Shown here: positions 7,087-33,173 of the stretch, in pieces
How positions within the stretch are numbered: position 1 is the stretch's first letter
Layout of the letters: the number at the start of each line of letters is the position of its first letter
Notes under the pieces: model-generated
Told to the model about the DNA's origin: nothing
What the model saw: only the letters and a program-made list of their open reading frames with translations
The model's database searches: none
Assembly (NCBI GenBank): GCA_016866775.1
Contig: VGLJ01000019.1
Coordinates: 1-64,000, forward strand
Direction of reading: 5' to 3'
From: Candidatus Rokuibacteriota bacterium
GTDB taxonomy: Bacteria > Methylomirabilota > Methylomirabilia > Rokubacteriales > CSP1-6
Length of the DNA: 64,000 nt
Program-made: the position numbers and the translations under genes

Positions 7087-7602
7087 ATGCCGAGAATCGC
7101 GCTCGACCTGAACACCGTGGAAGGCCGGCGGCCGATCAAGGGTGAATGGCGATTCGCGATGGGATTCGTTCCGGGCGAGCCCAACCAGGGACTCAGCGCC
7201 GAGCTTCGCGCGAGCCCGGCCCGCCTGGCGGAGTACGACGACTCCAAGTGGGAGATCTGCCGCAACGTCCGCGAGAGTCACTCCGTCGGGTTCTCGTTCT
7301 GCTGGTACCGGCTCGCCGTCGAGCTGCCGGAGCGCATCGGCGACGTTGCGGTCGCGGGCTCGCGCGTGTGGTTCGAGACGAACGCCGACAACTACGGCGA
7401 GATCTGGGTCAACGGACAGATCGATCGCGCCACGGGCGTCATTGTCGGCATCAACGCGCAGCACCGCGTGGAGATCAGCCCGCAGGCTGCACCAGGAACG
7501 AAGTACGTGATCGCGGTGCTGGTCGCGAACGGTCCGCTCGGCGAGCCGCGCGGCGGCATCTTCCTGCGCTACGCGACCCTGGCCTTCGAGTCCTCGGGAT
7601 AG
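7087..7602 (+). CDS. Hypothetical protein, beta-sandwich (galactose-binding-like)
   Basis: 171 residues, no signal peptide, preceded by GAGAGGAGA close to the ATG. Its core WYRLAVELPERIGDVAVAG, then VWFETNADNYGEIWVNGQ is the pattern of the sugar-binding jelly roll found in family-2 glycosidases. Here it stands alone without a catalytic domain. It probably binds a small molecule or carbohydrate and is co-transcribed with the hydroxyacid dehydrogenase. Confidence 0.6.
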   Translation: MPRIALDLNTVEGRRPIKGEWRFAMGFVPGEPNQGLSAELRASPARLAEYDDSKWEICRNVRESHSVGFSFCWYRLAVELPERIGDVAVAGSRVWFETNADNYGEIWVNGQIDRATGVIVGINAQHRVEISPQAAPGTKYVIAVLVANGPLGEPRGGIFLRYATLAFESSG

Positions 7603-26478: not shown

Positions 26479-27741
26479 GTGCCGACGAGAACGAACAGCG
26501 AAGTGCTCGAGGTCGCCGGGCGCGAGGTCACGATCTCGAATCCTGGAAAGGTCTATTTCCCGCGCAGCGGCATCACGAAACTCGACCTCGTGCGCTACTA
26601 CCTCGACGTCGGCGAAGGCGCGGTGCGCGGAGTCTTCGATCGTCCGATGGCGTTGAAGCGCTCCCCGAACGGGGTCGAAGGCGAGTTCTTCTTCCAGAAG
26701 CGCGCGCCCGCGAAGCCGCCGCCGTGGGTCAAGACCGTGACGCTCGCGTTCCCGTCGGGGCGGACGGCCGACGAGATCGTCGTCACCGACGTCGCGCAGC
26801 TCGCCTGGATCATCAATCTCGGCTGCATCGATCTCAATCCGCACCCGGTTCGTGCCGGCGATCTGGAGCACCCGGACGAGCTGCGCGTGGACCTCGATCC
26901 AGGACCGGGCGTCGGGTTCGAGCGTGTGCGCGAGGCGGCCGGCGTCGTGCGCGAAGCGCTCGCCGAGCTCGGGCTCGTCGGCTGGCCCAAGACGTCGGGC
27001 TCGCGCGGCATCCACATCTACGTGCGCCTCGAGCCGCGCTGGGGATTCGACGACGTGCGCCGCGCCGCGCTCGCCCTGGCCCGGGATGCCGCGCGCCGCG
27101 CGCCGGCGCTGATCACCAGCAAGTGGTGGAAGGAGGAGCGGCACGGCGTCTTCGTCGACTACAACCAGAACGCGAAGGACCGCACGGTGGCGTCCGCGTA
27201 CTCCGTGCGGCCGACGCCCGACGGTCGCGTCTCCGCACCGCTCACGTGGGACGAAGTGCCCGTGTGCGATCTTGGCGATTTCACGCTGAAGACCATGCCG
27301 GCGCGCTTCGCGAAGCTCGGCGATCTGATGGCGGGCATCGATCGCTCCGCCGCGCCGCTCGATTCGCTGCTCGAGCTCGCCGCGCGTCACGAGGCCGAGG
27401 GGCTCGGCGACGCGCCGTGGCCGCCGCACTACAGGAAGCAGCGCGGCGAGCCGCCGCGCGTTCAGCCGTCGAAGCGACGGACGACGTCGCTCGTCACGGT
27501 CGCGAAGGCGGCGAAGAAGGAGGACGCGCTCGCGGGCCTCGCGCGGTGGCGCGAACGCCACCCGGAAGCGTCCGCCTACGTCGGTGAAGCAGAGGTGCTC
27601 GTCGACTCCATGCGCGGCCGTCGCACGACGTGGACCCGCGTTCGCGTGAATCTTCGGAACGTCCCGGACGAGCAGCGCCCGCCGGCAGAGCCGCCCGATC
27701 CCGACTACGATCCCTGGGAGAAGATGCGCTCGAGCTCGTAG
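26479..27741 (+). CDS. LigD-type DNA polymerase/primase domain protein (NHEJ)
   Basis: 420 residues from GTG 26479. The archaeo-eukaryotic primase fold of LigD polymerases is shown by ISNPGKVYFPRSGITKLDL, the metal-binding DLDPGPG (D138 and D140), SGSRGIHIYVRL, and VDYNQNAKDRTVASAYSVRP. These enzymes fill gaps during non-homologous end joining. The ligase function is in a separate convergent gene, and the two 3' ends overlap by 37 bases. No Ku gene is in the window. Confidence 0.93.
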   Translation: MPTRTNSEVLEVAGREVTISNPGKVYFPRSGITKLDLVRYYLDVGEGAVRGVFDRPMALKRSPNGVEGEFFFQKRAPAKPPPWVKTVTLAFPSGRTADEIVVTDVAQLAWIINLGCIDLNPHPVRAGDLEHPDELRVDLDPGPGVGFERVREAAGVVREALAELGLVGWPKTSGSRGIHIYVRLEPRWGFDDVRRAALALARDAARRAPALITSKWWKEERHGVFVDYNQNAKDRTVASAYSVRPTPDGRVSAPLTWDEVPVCDLGDFTLKTMPARFAKLGDLMAGIDRSAAPLDSLLELAARHEAEGLGDAPWPPHYRKQRGEPPRVQPSKRRTTSLVTVAKAAKKEDALAGLARWRERHPEASAYVGEAEVLVDSMRGRRTTWTRVRVNLRNVPDEQRPPAEPPDPDYDPWEKMRSSS

Positions 27742-28772
27742 GGCGGCGTGACGTCGAGCTGCTCGTACGTGCACGCGGCCGGCGTCTTGTCCGGACGCCA
27801 GCGCACGAAGTGCGCGGTGTGGCGGAACCGGTCGCCCTGCATGTGATCGAACGCGACCTCGAGCACGCGCTCCGGCCGTAGCGGCTCCCACTCGAGCGAC
27901 TTGTCGCGATTCCACCGGCTCGTCGCGCCGGGCACGCGCTGATCGCTCGTCGCCCAGTCCTTCCACGGGTGCCGGGCGAGCGCGTTCGTGCGCAGCGGCG
28001 CCAGGTCCGCGACGAGCGTGCGCCGCTCCTGCGCGGAGAAGCTCGCCGCCACGCCGACGTGCTGCAGGTCACCCTGCTCGTCGTAGAGACCGAGCAGGAG
28101 CGAGCCCACCGCCTCGCCGTGCGCGTCCTTGTGCCACCGGAATCCGCCGAGCACGACGTCCACGGTGCGCTTGTGCTTCACCTTGAGCATCGTGCGCTTG
28201 CCGGGCGCGTACGGCTCGTGGCTCGGCTTCGCCATGACGCCGTCGAGCCCCGCGCCCTCGAAGCGCTCGAACCAGTCCGTCGCCACCGCGCGATCGCGCG
28301 TGATCGGCGTGAGGTGCAGGGGAGGCCGCACGCGGCCGAGCGCGCGCTCCAGTCGCGCGCGGCGCTCCGCGAACGGCCGGCCGGTGAGATCCTCGCCGTC
28401 CCCGGCGAGCAGGTCCCACAGCACGACCGACGACGGGCTCTCCTTCGCCAGCAGCTTCACGCGCGACGCGGCGGGATGCAGGCGCATCTGCAGCGCCTCG
28501 AAGTCGAGGCCGGACTCGCCGACGATGACGAGCTCGCCGTCGACCACCGCGCGCGGCGGGAGCTGCTCCAGGACCCGCGCTTCGAGCTCGGGGAAGTAGC
28601 GGTTCAGCGGCTTGAGATCGCGGCTCTGCATGAACCGCTCGCCGCCGTCGCGAAAGATCAGCACGCGGAACCCGTCCCACTTCGGCTCGTAGATCCAGCC
28701 CTCGCCCTCGGGCAGGTGATCGACGAGCTTCGCGAGCATGGGGCGAACGGGCGGCTGGACCGGCAGCTGCAC
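27705..28772 (-). CDS. ATP-dependent DNA ligase (LigC/LigD type)
   Basis: 355 residues from GTG 28772. The adenylation motif is EPKWDGFR with Lys31, followed by DGELVIVGESGLDFEALQMR and a later LDGVMAKPSHEPYAPGKR. The C-terminal OB fold ends with VEVAFDHM-type text (VLEVAFDHMQGDRFRHTAHF). It lies one base downstream of the monooxygenase stop, on the same strand, and converges on the polymerase gene. Confidence 0.93.
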   Translation of the reverse strand: MQLPVQPPVRPMLAKLVDHLPEGEGWIYEPKWDGFRVLIFRDGGERFMQSRDLKPLNRYFPELEARVLEQLPPRAVVDGELVIVGESGLDFEALQMRLHPAASRVKLLAKESPSSVVLWDLLAGDGEDLTGRPFAERRARLERALGRVRPPLHLTPITRDRAVATDWFERFEGAGLDGVMAKPSHEPYAPGKRTMLKVKHKRTVDVVLGGFRWHKDAHGEAVGSLLLGLYDEQGDLQHVGVAASFSAQERRTLVADLAPLRTNALARHPWKDWATSDQRVPGATSRWNRDKSLEWEPLRPERVLEVAFDHMQGDRFRHTAHFVRWRPDKTPAACTYEQLDVTPPYELERIFSQGS

Positions 28773-28773
28773 G

Positions 28774-29940
28774 TTAGCGGAGCGCGGACGCTCCGGTCCG
28801 CTTGAGCTTCGGGATCACGTGCTTGCCGAACATCTCGATCGACGACATCACCCGCTCGTGCGGCACGGTCTCGGTCGCCATCAGGAACTGCAGCTCGTCG
28901 ACGCCGGCGGCCTCGTGGATCGCGATGCTCTTCAGGCACGTCTCCGGGTTGCCCGCGACGAGCACGCCGCGGTCGACGAGCGTGTCGGCGTCGATCTGGT
29001 TCCACAGCGCGGAGGCGATCTGCCCGGACCCGCCCGAGAGATCCACCTGGGGCGCGCCCTCGGGGCCGTCGCCCTTGAGATAGCGCGAGAAGTTCGCGCG
29101 CAGGTGATCCGGCACGCCGCCCCACGACTCGACGAGCTGCTCGTAGAGGTGCGTCTGGTCCTTCAGATACGGGCGATCCGGGCCGAAGAACGTCCGCAGC
29201 GACTTCGCGGACAGCTCGCGCGCGGCCTTGTCGTCCCAGTCGCACAGCCCCATCGTCGCGCTCAGCCACTGGTCGTTGACGAACTTGCCGACGGGCGTCG
29301 CCTGACGGACGCGCTCCTTGTACTTCGTGATGTGCGGCGCCAGGTACGACGGCGACGCCACGCTCAGCGCCATCACGCCGATGCCGAGCTCGGCGGCGAG
29401 CTCGTAGGTGGACGGCTGCAGCGCCGCGACCCAGATCCGCGGGTGCGGCCGCTGGAACGGCTTCGGCCGGACGTCGCGCGGCGGCACGGTCCAGAACTTG
29501 CCTTCCCACGAGAACAGGCCGTCCTCCCAGACGCGCGGGATCATCCGCAGCGACTCTTCCCACATCGCGCGCGTGTTCCGCGGATCGATGCCCATGCCGA
29601 TCTGCTCGTACGGCGCCGAGCGCCCGGTGCCGAACTCGACGCGCCCGCCCGACATGTGATCGACCATCGCCACGCGCTCGGCGACGCGGACCGGGTGGTG
29701 GTAGGGGAGGATCACGACACCGAAGCCGAGGCGGATGCGCTTCGTCAGCCGGCTGAGCGCGCCGAACAGCACCTCCGGGCACGGCGACATCGAGAAGCTC
29801 GTGAGGAAGTGGTGCTCGACGAACCAGATGGCGTCGAAGCCCATCTCGTCGGCGAAGACGCACTGCTCCAGCGTCTCCTCGATGACCCTGTGATCGTCCA
29901 CGACCGGTCGCTGCATCTCGTAGGCGAGGCTCAATCGCAT
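28774..29940 (-). CDS. LLM-class flavin-dependent monooxygenase (copy 2)
   Basis: 388 residues from ATG 29940, six bases after AGGAGGA. It has IWFVEHHFLTSFSMSPCPEV and RIRLGFGVVILPYHHPVRVA, typical of luciferase-like enzymes of the alkanal monooxygenase branch. It diverges from the nitric oxide synthase gene with only 32 bases between starts. Confidence 0.9.
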   Translation of the reverse strand: MRLSLAYEMQRPVVDDHRVIEETLEQCVFADEMGFDAIWFVEHHFLTSFSMSPCPEVLFGALSRLTKRIRLGFGVVILPYHHPVRVAERVAMVDHMSGGRVEFGTGRSAPYEQIGMGIDPRNTRAMWEESLRMIPRVWEDGLFSWEGKFWTVPPRDVRPKPFQRPHPRIWVAALQPSTYELAAELGIGVMALSVASPSYLAPHITKYKERVRQATPVGKFVNDQWLSATMGLCDWDDKAARELSAKSLRTFFGPDRPYLKDQTHLYEQLVESWGGVPDHLRANFSRYLKGDGPEGAPQVDLSGGSGQIASALWNQIDADTLVDRGVLVAGNPETCLKSIAIHEAAGVDELQFLMATETVPHERVMSSIEMFGKHVIPKLKRTGASALR

Positions 29941-29972: not shown

Positions 29973-32900
29973 GTGGTGACCGACGACGCGCACCGACGAC
30001 TCCGTGCGGTTCCGTTCTTTTCTTCGCTGTCGCCTGCCGACCTCGATCGCCTGATCGCGCAGGCCGCCGTGGTGCCCGCGGCGCCCGGGGAGATCCTCAT
30101 GCGCGAAGGGGACGTCGGCGACCGGATGTTCGTCATCGAGCGCGGCTCGGTGCAGGTCTACACGACGGGCTTCGACGCGTCCGACGTCGTCCTCGCCCGC
30201 CTCGAGCCGGGACAATGGTTCGGCGAGCCGGCGCTCCTGCCCGGCGGCACCGGCCGGCGCAACGCGAGCGTGCGCGCGCTCGACGACTGCCGGCTCCTCG
30301 CGATCTCCGAGGCCGCGCTGCTCGAGGCGCTCGATCACCACAACGAGCTCGTCCGCCAGCTCCGCGCCGCCGGCGAGGCGCAGCGGCTCTTTCGCCGCAC
30401 GCGGCTCACGGAGAGCGTCTTCGCGACGCTCGGTGTCGCCGTCGGCGGACAGGCGTATCGCCTCGAGGACTTCGCCGCCGGCCAGGTCGTGTTCGAGGAG
30501 GGCGCGCGCGGCGACCGCGTGTATCTGATTCTCGACGGCCGCGCCGAAGTGAAGCGCCTCGAGAACGGCGTCGAGACCGTGCTGGCGGTGCTGCTGCCGG
30601 GACAGTTCTTCGGCGAGCTCGCCATCCTCCACGACGCGCCGCGCGCCGCGACCGTGCGGGCGATCGAGGACCTCAAGACCGTGAGCCTCGACGGCGAGTG
30701 GTTCCGCGCGGCGATCCGCCGGACGCCGGTCTTGCGCTCGCTGATGGAGGCGCTCTCGAGCATGTACCTGCTCCCGCGGCGCGGGCTCGTGACGCTGCAG
30801 ACGGGCCAGGTCGAAGGCCGGCCGAGCCTCACGGCCGTGCACACCCTGCCCGACGGCCGGCGCGTGGTCAGCACGCGCTTGGTCCAGAGCGCCGCCTTCA
30901 CCTCGCGCGTGCTCGATGCGCGTCCGGTCGAGGAGGCGCGCTTCGAGGACACCGCGCGCGGCATCTATCGCGCGATCGGTCTCGCCGGCGGCCGCCTCGT
31001 GGAGCTCCACGCCGAAGGCGAATGGACGCGGCTGGGCGAGATGCTCGGGCTGCTGCTCGACGGCACCGCTGTGGAGGAGTGGCAGCTCGCGCTCTTCCGC
31101 GACCGCGGCGAGTTCAGCGCGGAGGACCCGCGCCCGCTCTACGCGGATACGGAAGTGATCTGCGCCTGCACGCACGCGACGTGCGGACAGATCCAGCAAG
31201 CGATCGCCGACGGCTGCCACACGCTGGACGCGGTGGCGCAGCGGACGCGCGCGACCATGGTGTGCGGCGGCTGCGCGCCTCTCGTCAAGGAGATGCTCGG
31301 CGATGCCGCGTGGACCGCGGCGAACGTCGCGGAGACGGTGGACCTGGCCGACGACGTCCGGACGTTCCGGATCCGGCCGGCGTCCGGCGTGTGCGGCGCG
31401 TATCGGCCCGGCCAGCACGTGGTGCTGCAGGCGCGCATCGACAACCGATGGATCCAGCGCGCGTACACGCTGTCGTCGGCGCCCGGGGCGCGCGACACCT
31501 ACGAGATCACCATGAAGCGCGAGCCCCAGGGCGTCTTCTCGCGCTGGTTCTTCGATCGCCTGCGCCCGGACGCGCTGCTCCGGGTCTCCGAGCCGGCGGG
31601 CCACTACTACCTCGCCGACGACGAGACGCGCGACGTGGTGTGCCTCGTCGGCGGGATCGGCATGACGCCGGCGCTCTCGATGGCGCGGGCGCTCGCCGAG
31701 CAGCCGCGCCGGCTCAGGCTGCACGTCGACTACTCGATCTCGACCCGGGCGCAGGCGATTTGCGCGGAGGAGCTCTCCGCGCTGCCGCGGAGGAATCAGA
31801 GCATCTCCGTCCGGATCCGGATCACGCGCGAGACCGGCCGCTTCGGCGCCGCCGACGCGAGAGAGCTCGTCGAGCGATTTCCCGAGGCGCTGTTCTACCT
31901 GTGCGGCGGCGACGCCTACATGGAGGCGGTCGCCGGACATCTCCGCGCGTGCGGGGTGTCGGACGACCGGATCCGGATCGAGACGTTCACGGTGGCGGGA
32001 GAGAAGCCGGTCGGCGGCGCCGCGGGCACGTCCTCCGGATGTCCGGTCGACCACGCGGCGATGGTGACCGCGCCGCCGGCGACGCCGCTCGAGCGGGCGA
32101 AGGCGTTCCTCCAGCAGTACTACAACGAAACGAACGCACGGGCGGTGTTCGACCTCCGCTGGCGCCAGGTGGAAGAGGAGTTCCGCACCACCGGCACCTA
32201 CCGGCAGACGCGCGAAGAGCTCGGCTACGCGGCGCGCCTCGCGTGGCGCAACAGCACGCGCTGCGTCGGCCGTCTCTACTGGGAAGGTCTCGCGCTGCGC
32301 GACTTCCGTCACGCGACGACCGGCGAGGCGATGCTCGACGCGATCATGGGCCACATCGAGATCGCGACCAACGGCGGCGCGCTGCGGCCGGTGATCACGG
32401 TGTTCCCCGCGAGAGACGCGAACGGCGTCGGGCCGCGCGTGTGGAGCCCGCAGCTCTTCCGCTATGCCGGCTACGGCTCGCCCGACGGCACCGTGCTCGG
32501 CGATCCGGCCAACGTGGAACTGACCGACGTCGCGCAGCGGCTCGGCTGGCTGCCGCCCGAGCCCCGCGGCGCGTTCGACCTGCTGCCGATCATCGTCCGG
32601 GCGGTGGGCGAGCGCCCGGTCTGGCGCGAGATTCCCCGCGCGCTGGTGATCGAGATTCCGATCGTGCATCCGCAGTTCGGCTGGTTCGCGGAGCTCGGCC
32701 TCAAGTGGTACGCGTTGCCCGCGGTCTCCGCGATGCTCTTCGATGCGGGCGGCGTCGAGTACCCGGCCGCGCCGTTCAACGGCTGGTACATGGGCACGGA
32801 GATCGGCGCGCGGAACTTCGGCGACATCGGCCGCTACAACCTGCTCCCGGTGGTGGCGCAGAGGATGGGCCTCGACATCAGCAGCGATCGGCTGCTGTGG

Positions 32901-33173
32901 CGCGACCGCGCCATCGTCGAGCTCAACGTCGCCGTCCTCCATTCCTACGAGCGCGCCGGCGTCACGATGGTCGACCACCACGCCGCCGCGCACGCGTTCG
33001 ACAAGTTCGAGGCGCTCGAGACCCAGGCGGGGCGCCCGGTCTATGCGCGGTGGAGCTGGATCGTCCCGCCGATCTCCGGATCGGCGACGACCGTGTTCCA
33101 TCGCGAGTGGCAGGACATCGAGCTCACGCCGATCTACCGCGTGCAGCCGGACGCATGGACGGACGCTCGCTGA
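29973..33173 (+). CDS. Self-sufficient nitric oxide synthase with two cNMP-binding domains
   Basis: 1066 residues from GTG 29973 (GTG 29976 also possible). Domains in order: cNMP-binding roll 1 (about 15-125, cassette at 83-102, FGEPALLPGG then RRNASVRA); roll 2 (about 150-262, cassette 213-231, FFGELAILHDAPRAATVRA); an unassigned 130-residue segment; a BFD-like [2Fe-2S] domain with C397, C399, C431 and C434; an FNR-like FAD/NAD reductase (RAYT at 496-499, GGIGMTP at 560-566, CGG at 644); and a full NOS oxygenase (695-1066). The oxygenase has the heme-thiolate C764 in WRNSTRCVGR, KWYALPAVS, and E943 in NGWYMGTEIGAR, which binds arginine in NOS. It should make NO and citrulline from arginine. 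A reductase N-terminal to the oxygenase is known from the Sorangium cellulosum enzyme. Tandem cNMP domains suggest allosteric control by a cyclic nucleotide. Confidence 0.95.
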   Translation: MVTDDAHRRLRAVPFFSSLSPADLDRLIAQAAVVPAAPGEILMREGDVGDRMFVIERGSVQVYTTGFDASDVVLARLEPGQWFGEPALLPGGTGRRNASVRALDDCRLLAISEAALLEALDHHNELVRQLRAAGEAQRLFRRTRLTESVFATLGVAVGGQAYRLEDFAAGQVVFEEGARGDRVYLILDGRAEVKRLENGVETVLAVLLPGQFFGELAILHDAPRAATVRAIEDLKTVSLDGEWFRAAIRRTPVLRSLMEALSSMYLLPRRGLVTLQTGQVEGRPSLTAVHTLPDGRRVVSTRLVQSAAFTSRVLDARPVEEARFEDTARGIYRAIGLAGGRLVELHAEGEWTRLGEMLGLLLDGTAVEEWQLALFRDRGEFSAEDPRPLYADTEVICACTHATCGQIQQAIADGCHTLDAVAQRTRATMVCGGCAPLVKEMLGDAAWTAANVAETVDLADDVRTFRIRPASGVCGAYRPGQHVVLQARIDNRWIQRAYTLSSAPGARDTYEITMKREPQGVFSRWFFDRLRPDALLRVSEPAGHYYLADDETRDVVCLVGGIGMTPALSMARALAEQPRRLRLHVDYSISTRAQAICAEELSALPRRNQSISVRIRITRETGRFGAADARELVERFPEALFYLCGGDAYMEAVAGHLRACGVSDDRIRIETFTVAGEKPVGGAAGTSSGCPVDHAAMVTAPPATPLERAKAFLQQYYNETNARAVFDLRWRQVEEEFRTTGTYRQTREELGYAARLAWRNSTRCVGRLYWEGLALRDFRHATTGEAMLDAIMGHIEIATNGGALRPVITVFPARDANGVGPRVWSPQLFRYAGYGSPDGTVLGDPANVELTDVAQRLGWLPPEPRGAFDLLPIIVRAVGERPVWREIPRALVIEIPIVHPQFGWFAELGLKWYALPAVSAMLFDAGGVEYPAAPFNGWYMGTEIGARNFGDIGRYNLLPVVAQRMGLDISSDRLLWRDRAIVELNVAVLHSYERAGVTMVDHHAAAHAFDKFEALETQAGRPVYARWSWIVPPISGSATTVFHREWQDIELTPIYRVQPDAWTDAR

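Follow-up and report, generated by a model that had tools for sequence, protein, structure and literature searches.

How is NO production controlled in a bacterial synthase that carries its own reductase and, in front of it, a pair of cyclic-nucleotide-binding domains? NO synthases (NOS) under calcium control are found in animals, where the input comes through calmodulin, and in Synechococcus PCC 7335, whose SyNOS has a C2 domain; for most bacterial NO synthases we know of no control on the protein. The question is raised by a gene in a 64,000-nucleotide stretch of DNA from a Candidatus Rokuibacteriota bacterium (the window). We analysed the domains of its product, their relatives in other genomes and the genes that surround it.

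Domain organization of the window protein

The gene lies at 29973-33173 on the + strand (as do all parts of it given below) and is a single open reading frame for 1066 amino acids, uninterrupted for 1066 codons from the GTG at 29973 to the TGA ending at 33173; an adjacent GTG at 29976 is an alternative start. Its product has the architecture cNMP-cNMP-linker-BFD-FNR-NOS on one chain, that is, from N to C terminus, two cyclic-nucleotide (cNMP)-binding domains, a linker, a BFD-type [2Fe-2S] domain, an FNR-like FAD/NAD reductase part and a NOS oxygenase domain. This layout had been predicted from the letters of the DNA alone (the sequence-only reading), and Pfam searches covering the three regions of the protein confirmed it. 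The cNMP_binding model (PF00027) matched two N-terminal stretches (E 2.7e-45), domain A at 30081-30341 (residues 37-123) and domain B at 30456-30722 (approximately residues 162-250, placed from the second PF00027 stretch, phmmer matches to PKA/PKG chains and the strands of the predicted model). The linker (30756-31148, residues 262-392) is followed by the BFD-like domain (31155-31298, residues 395-442; Fer2_BFD, E 4.3e-11), the FNR-like FAD-binding domain (31323-31607, residues 451-545; FAD_binding_6, E 3.5e-10) and the NAD(P)-binding domain with a GGIGMTP motif (31647-31931, residues 559-653), for which the NAD_binding_1 match (E 0.0004, 21.4 bits) narrowly missed the curated cut-off of 22.

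The fused reductase that had been proposed is thus located. All four BFD cysteines (C397, C399, C431 and C434) are present in every sequence of the family alignment, and the region is matched by bacterioferritin-associated ferredoxins of known structure. For the FNR part, the closest curated NCBI model is the reductase half of NO-inducible flavohaemoglobin, with a score far below the model's cut-off. The linker gave no Pfam or PDB match by sequence; its predicted fold weakly resembles part of a ferredoxin reductase of the BphA4/putidaredoxin-reductase type (Foldseek probability about 0.99, with no E-value below 0.001), the linker-BFD piece being predicted with a mean pLDDT of 87. The model of the full-length protein is of moderate quality (pLDDT 69, pTM 0.38) and too loose to be read for domain contacts or gating.

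The NOS oxygenase domain (32088-33158, residues 706-1062) is complete (NO_synthase, PF02898, E 1.5e-147). Its model is matched by NOS of animals and of B. subtilis, the latter with 46-47% identity. The haem-ligand Cys764 (32262-32264, within WRNSTRCVGR) and the substrate-site Glu943 (32799-32801, the position of nNOS Glu592, within GWYMGTEIG) carry the numbers given to them in the sequence-only reading, and both are invariant in the family alignment. As a separate observation, a Cys-Pro-x-x-His motif, possibly a metal or interface site, stands just before the NOS domain (32040-32054, residues 690-694, CPVDH; CPVEH in locus L101 and CPFAH in L010, two fused NOS genes described below).

Comparison with other types of NOS

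Oxygenase-only NOS, as in Bacillus, Streptomyces and Deinococcus, have the same oxygenase domain without reductase and without sensor. They mostly also differ at Val918 of the window protein (32724-32726), which corresponds to Val567 of rat nNOS, a residue that matters for the haem pocket and potential NO production (PMC6120233). All bacterial NOS have been said to carry Ile there (PMC6104048). The sampled sequences contradict this universal statement: the residue is Val in all 22 fused proteins, and the 21 oxygenase-only NOS sampled have 16 Ile, 4 Val and 1 Leu. Since the Val of the fused proteins is shared within one lineage, it may reflect a single event.

SyNOS and animal NOS share with the window protein, as we read it, the NOS oxygenase chemistry and a regulatory input on a self-sufficient enzyme. 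In contrast to it, their input is calcium, acting via a C2 domain or calmodulin, their reductase is a C-terminal diflavin one with no Fe-S centre, and they carry C2/globin domains or a calmodulin site rather than cNMP domains (PMC12922734, PMC6104048). The window protein is not of this diflavin kind, as the Pfam scan found no flavodoxin-like FMN domain in it and its NOS domain is C-terminal, with no CYPOR-like FMN/FAD reductase behind. It has instead what marks the type of scNOS from Sorangium cellulosum: a four-Cys BFD domain and FNR-like FAD and NAD domains, with the reductase before the oxygenase in one chain.

We also noted, in a cyanobacterial genome, a frame for a cNMP-binding domain (L112:7707-8012, +) just downstream of a SyNOS-type gene that ends at 7467, with a short second NOS-like piece between the two (about 7480-7590). 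Broken or partial NOS pieces occur in four genomes of the cyanobacterial phylum (G338, G281, G362 and G491), pointing to repeated NOS decay in the sample of that phylum.

The cNMP-type NOS is a small family and not an assembly artefact

Among the matches listed, full-length collinear relatives of the window protein were found in a Sericytochromatia MAG (L004), Reyranella (L005), two Gammaproteobacteria (L006 and L007), a Rhodospirillales MAG (L008) and Polyangium sp. 6x1 (L010). The same scan of genome contigs listed a relative on a cut-off alphaproteobacterial contig (L009). Five more full-length cNMP-type members came from genomes of the Polyangium family, Polyangiaceae (L102-L106); the family has at least these members. 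L004, L006, L008 and L010 were scanned with Pfam, which confirmed both cNMP domains in each. Judged by these sequences, the cNMP-type fused NOS is not a one-off; it forms a small family with members in four phyla or more. Relatives borne on plasmids gave oxygenase-type matches only (query residues of about 676-1064), with no fusion.

An assembly break within the gene, which would have undone the sequence-only reading, was not found: genomes of other phyla, assembled independently, have the same collinear order, which excludes an assembly error as the source of the fusion. A chimeric or contaminant contig might nevertheless be suspected, as the window's assembly is fragmented into 159 contigs and an intact NOS is present in only 1 of the 95 genomes of the phylum sample, so that the fused NOS is not a core pathway in the phylum. 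We regard this suspicion as next to negligible. Besides the independent genomes with the same order, the GC3 of the gene (0.93) is host-like, most of its convincing neighbours having roughly 0.9-0.97. Moreover, decayed pieces of NOS lie at L107:6524-6763 (-) and L108:6685-6891 (+); the two genomes share a genus, which falls within the family of the window's own genome. The window protein is the best match of the L107 remnant (104 bits versus 82 for the next NOS) and the second-best match of the L108 remnant among the NOS proteins compared. Both remnants adjoin the same predicted gene, a phosphodiesterase/phosphatase-like frame as read from the sequence; neither locus retains a trace of the sensor or reductase part. 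They represent loss of NOS within the window's family. Together, collinear homologues, host-like GC3 and the remnants in the family rule out a chimera as the origin of the fusion itself.

A sister subtype carries EF-hands in place of the cNMP domains

In six genomes of Polyangium's family (L096-L101), one of which we take to be S. cellulosum So0157-2, the NOS protein matches residues 263-1066 of the window protein at about 43% identity and nothing before residue 263. Pfam found a pair of EF-hands in the N-terminal part of L101, the only one of the six scanned, and of the cyanobacterial L110; EF-hand loops are readable directly in the sequence of the other L096-L101 proteins and of L109, also cyanobacterial. 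In all of these the pair is preceded by an N-terminal region without assigned identity. L113 gave no EF-hand by Pfam, though its layout is of the EF type, and L114 is interrupted by a stop.

The Sorangium NOS has been described as having two EF-hands and a BFD domain (PMC7400543), the reversed, reductase-first order has been described for fused NOS, and scNOS is reported to be a characterised enzyme whose fused 2Fe2S/FAD/NAD reductase is of this kind (PMC3701330). The sequence-only reading had compared the window protein with scNOS. The comparison holds for the reductase and all else within residues 263-1066: scNOS (Agapie et al. 2009) shares the linker, the BFD [2Fe-2S] domain, the FNR-like FAD/NAD domains, the C-terminal NOS and the haem-pocket Val. 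It fails for the N terminus, as the window protein is not scNOS with sensors added; in the scNOS type the N-terminal 260 residues are unrelated to the two cNMP domains, and the EF-hand module of Sorangium is absent from the window protein. Having two cNMP domains and no EF-hand, the window NOS is a sister subtype and not scNOS itself. Cyanobacterial EF-hand fused NOS of the Microcoleus/Crinalium type (L109 and L110; PMC3701330, PMC7400543) likewise have the same reductase-first order and NOS core, with EF-hands where the window protein has cNMP domains. The linker, being common to both sensor types, is part of the core.

In the tree of the linker-BFD-FNR core, a single branch (support 100/99) splits the cNMP type from the EF-hand type, with the window protein adjoining the EF-hand side (98/96), a placement that carries a long-branch warning. 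In the NOS-domain tree the EF type groups together with support of 100/98, the cNMP type less firmly, with 76/92. The simplest account of these sequences would be a single exchange of the N-terminal sensor, in either direction, as the core tree is unrooted. Bacteria thus seem to put NO production under different second messengers by exchanging one end of the enzyme. Whether the exchanged input is indeed a second messenger on a common catalytic core, calcium for the EF-hand branch and a cyclic nucleotide for the cNMP branch, with NO directly under cAMP/cGMP control in the latter, we consider an even bet. The EF-hand branch would in that case amount to a sensor-exchange experiment made by nature on a single enzyme, and the idea is testable at once because a single family of culturable myxobacteria contains both branches.

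Of the parts, the NOS domain and its fusion to an Fe-S/FAD/NAD reductase were already known. The literature searched, mostly outside the subscription journals, contained no mention of calcium control of scNOS and no cNMP-linked NOS. Nor did it describe the cNMP-sensor subtype, its distribution among phyla or its place as sister to the EF-hand subtype, all of which appear to be new.

Conservation of the cyclic-nucleotide-binding sites

The phosphate-binding cassettes of both cNMP domains, rated as good in the sequence-only reading, contain the expected Glu and Arg: E85 and R96 in cassette A (GEPALLPGGTGRRNAS; 30222-30269, residues 84-99), E215 and R224 in cassette B (GELAILHDAPRAAT; 30612-30653, residues 214-227). 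That reading would have suffered had the cassettes not been conserved in homologues. However, all 12 proteins that extend into this part have Glu85 and Arg96, and Glu215 and Arg224 are kept in 10 of the 12, both being lost together in the gammaproteobacterial L006 and L007. Seven diverse N-terminal regions, only 23-37% identical to the window protein, have 16 invariant positions, E85 and R96 included. Of the proteins with solved structures, those that match residues 1-266 best are, bar one large Toxoplasma protein, cGMP- and cAMP-dependent protein kinases.

Class III nucleotidyl cyclases, which are common, gave matches over the Pfam cut-off in all eight genomes tested, one in each of three genomes and 15 to 23 in the other five, the window's genome having 23. 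For five of the genomes the contig with the NOS gene was identified, and none of these contigs carries a cyclase match. Given the conserved E85/R96 and the cyclases in the genomes tested, the sequences make binding of a cNMP likely, at least at site A.

It is also conceivable that the enzyme is a constitutive, self-sufficient NOS, with the cNMP-fold domains serving as a structural or dimerisation scaffold or sensing another ligand. Several CRP/FNR-family regulators behave in this way, and many proteins of the CRP/FNR fold bind no cNMP; the degenerate site B of L006 and L007 and the lack of a linked cyclase gene would also fit. Such a role, however, does not account for the phosphate- and ribose-contacting residues of site A being invariant despite low overall identity, nor for cassettes that look PKA/PKG-like, and the paired loss in site B is the pattern of a binding site that is kept or abandoned as a unit. 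We regard a scaffold or a sensor of another ligand as unlikely, and infer that NO output may be switched by a cyclic nucleotide.

Proposed control of NO synthesis

With some confidence we propose that the window protein is a self-sufficient NO synthase with its output controlled by a 3',5'-cyclic nucleotide. As is known for the family, NAD(P)H would reduce the FAD of the FNR domain, the BFD-type [2Fe-2S] domain would pass single electrons to the Cys764-ligated haem, and the oxygenase, a dimer by the family rule, would convert L-arginine to citrulline and NO with tetrahydropterin or tetrahydrofolate. In the absence of ligand, the tandem cNMP domains may hold the Fe-S shuttle away from the haem; binding of cAMP or cGMP, chiefly to site A, would release it, similar to what calmodulin does for the FMN domain in mammalian NOS. 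The identity of the ligand, the gating of electron transfer, the direction of control and a signalling role are what we infer; for the gating, we take as analogues the action of calmodulin on animal NOS and a cAMP-activated mycobacterial acetyltransferase. In the latter, KAT, a cNMP domain fused at the N terminus switches the enzyme (PMC5861322), and in KAT as in PKG cNMP domains with intact Glu/Arg cassettes control an enzyme on the same chain. In PKA/PKG the cNMP domains are in tandem, as in the window protein. The enzyme controlled is in each of these cases a different one.

In animals NO acts upstream of cGMP. If the proposal is true, control of NO by cAMP or cGMP would reverse this order, and a NOS gated by a cNMP would connect cyclic nucleotide to NO directly, within one protein.

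Genes surrounding the NOS gene

The surroundings of the gene bear on the use of the NO. Downstream, a cytidine/nucleoside-deaminase-like gene (PF00383; 33155-33727, +) overlaps the 3' end of the NOS gene by 19 bases, which suggests translational coupling, and is probably its operon partner. On the other side, a divergent gene for a luciferase-like monooxygenase (28774-29940, -) starts 32 bases upstream of the NOS start. Neither is conserved beside other fused NOS genes, and comparison of fused NOS loci between genomes revealed no conserved gene neighbourhood that could serve as a functional clue.

It is possible that the enzyme is cNMP-controlled but makes NO for metabolism (nitration or detoxification chemistry, or use of arginine nitrogen) and not for signalling. 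Its neighbours in the window are catabolic, including, besides the monooxygenase and the deaminase, a solute-binding protein and a CoA-transferase, and SyNOS turns arginine nitrogen into nitrate (PMC6104048). Yet none of these neighbours is conserved between genomes, no nitrating P450 or globin domain is attached to the protein, and a second-messenger sensor would be unusual for a purely metabolic enzyme. A metabolic purpose appears improbable, and we retain cyclic-nucleotide control, with a probable signalling role for the NO, as the preferred reading.

Further upstream, LigD-type polymerase and ATP-dependent DNA ligase domains are encoded by separate convergent genes (26479-27741, +, and 27705-28772, -) that overlap slightly.
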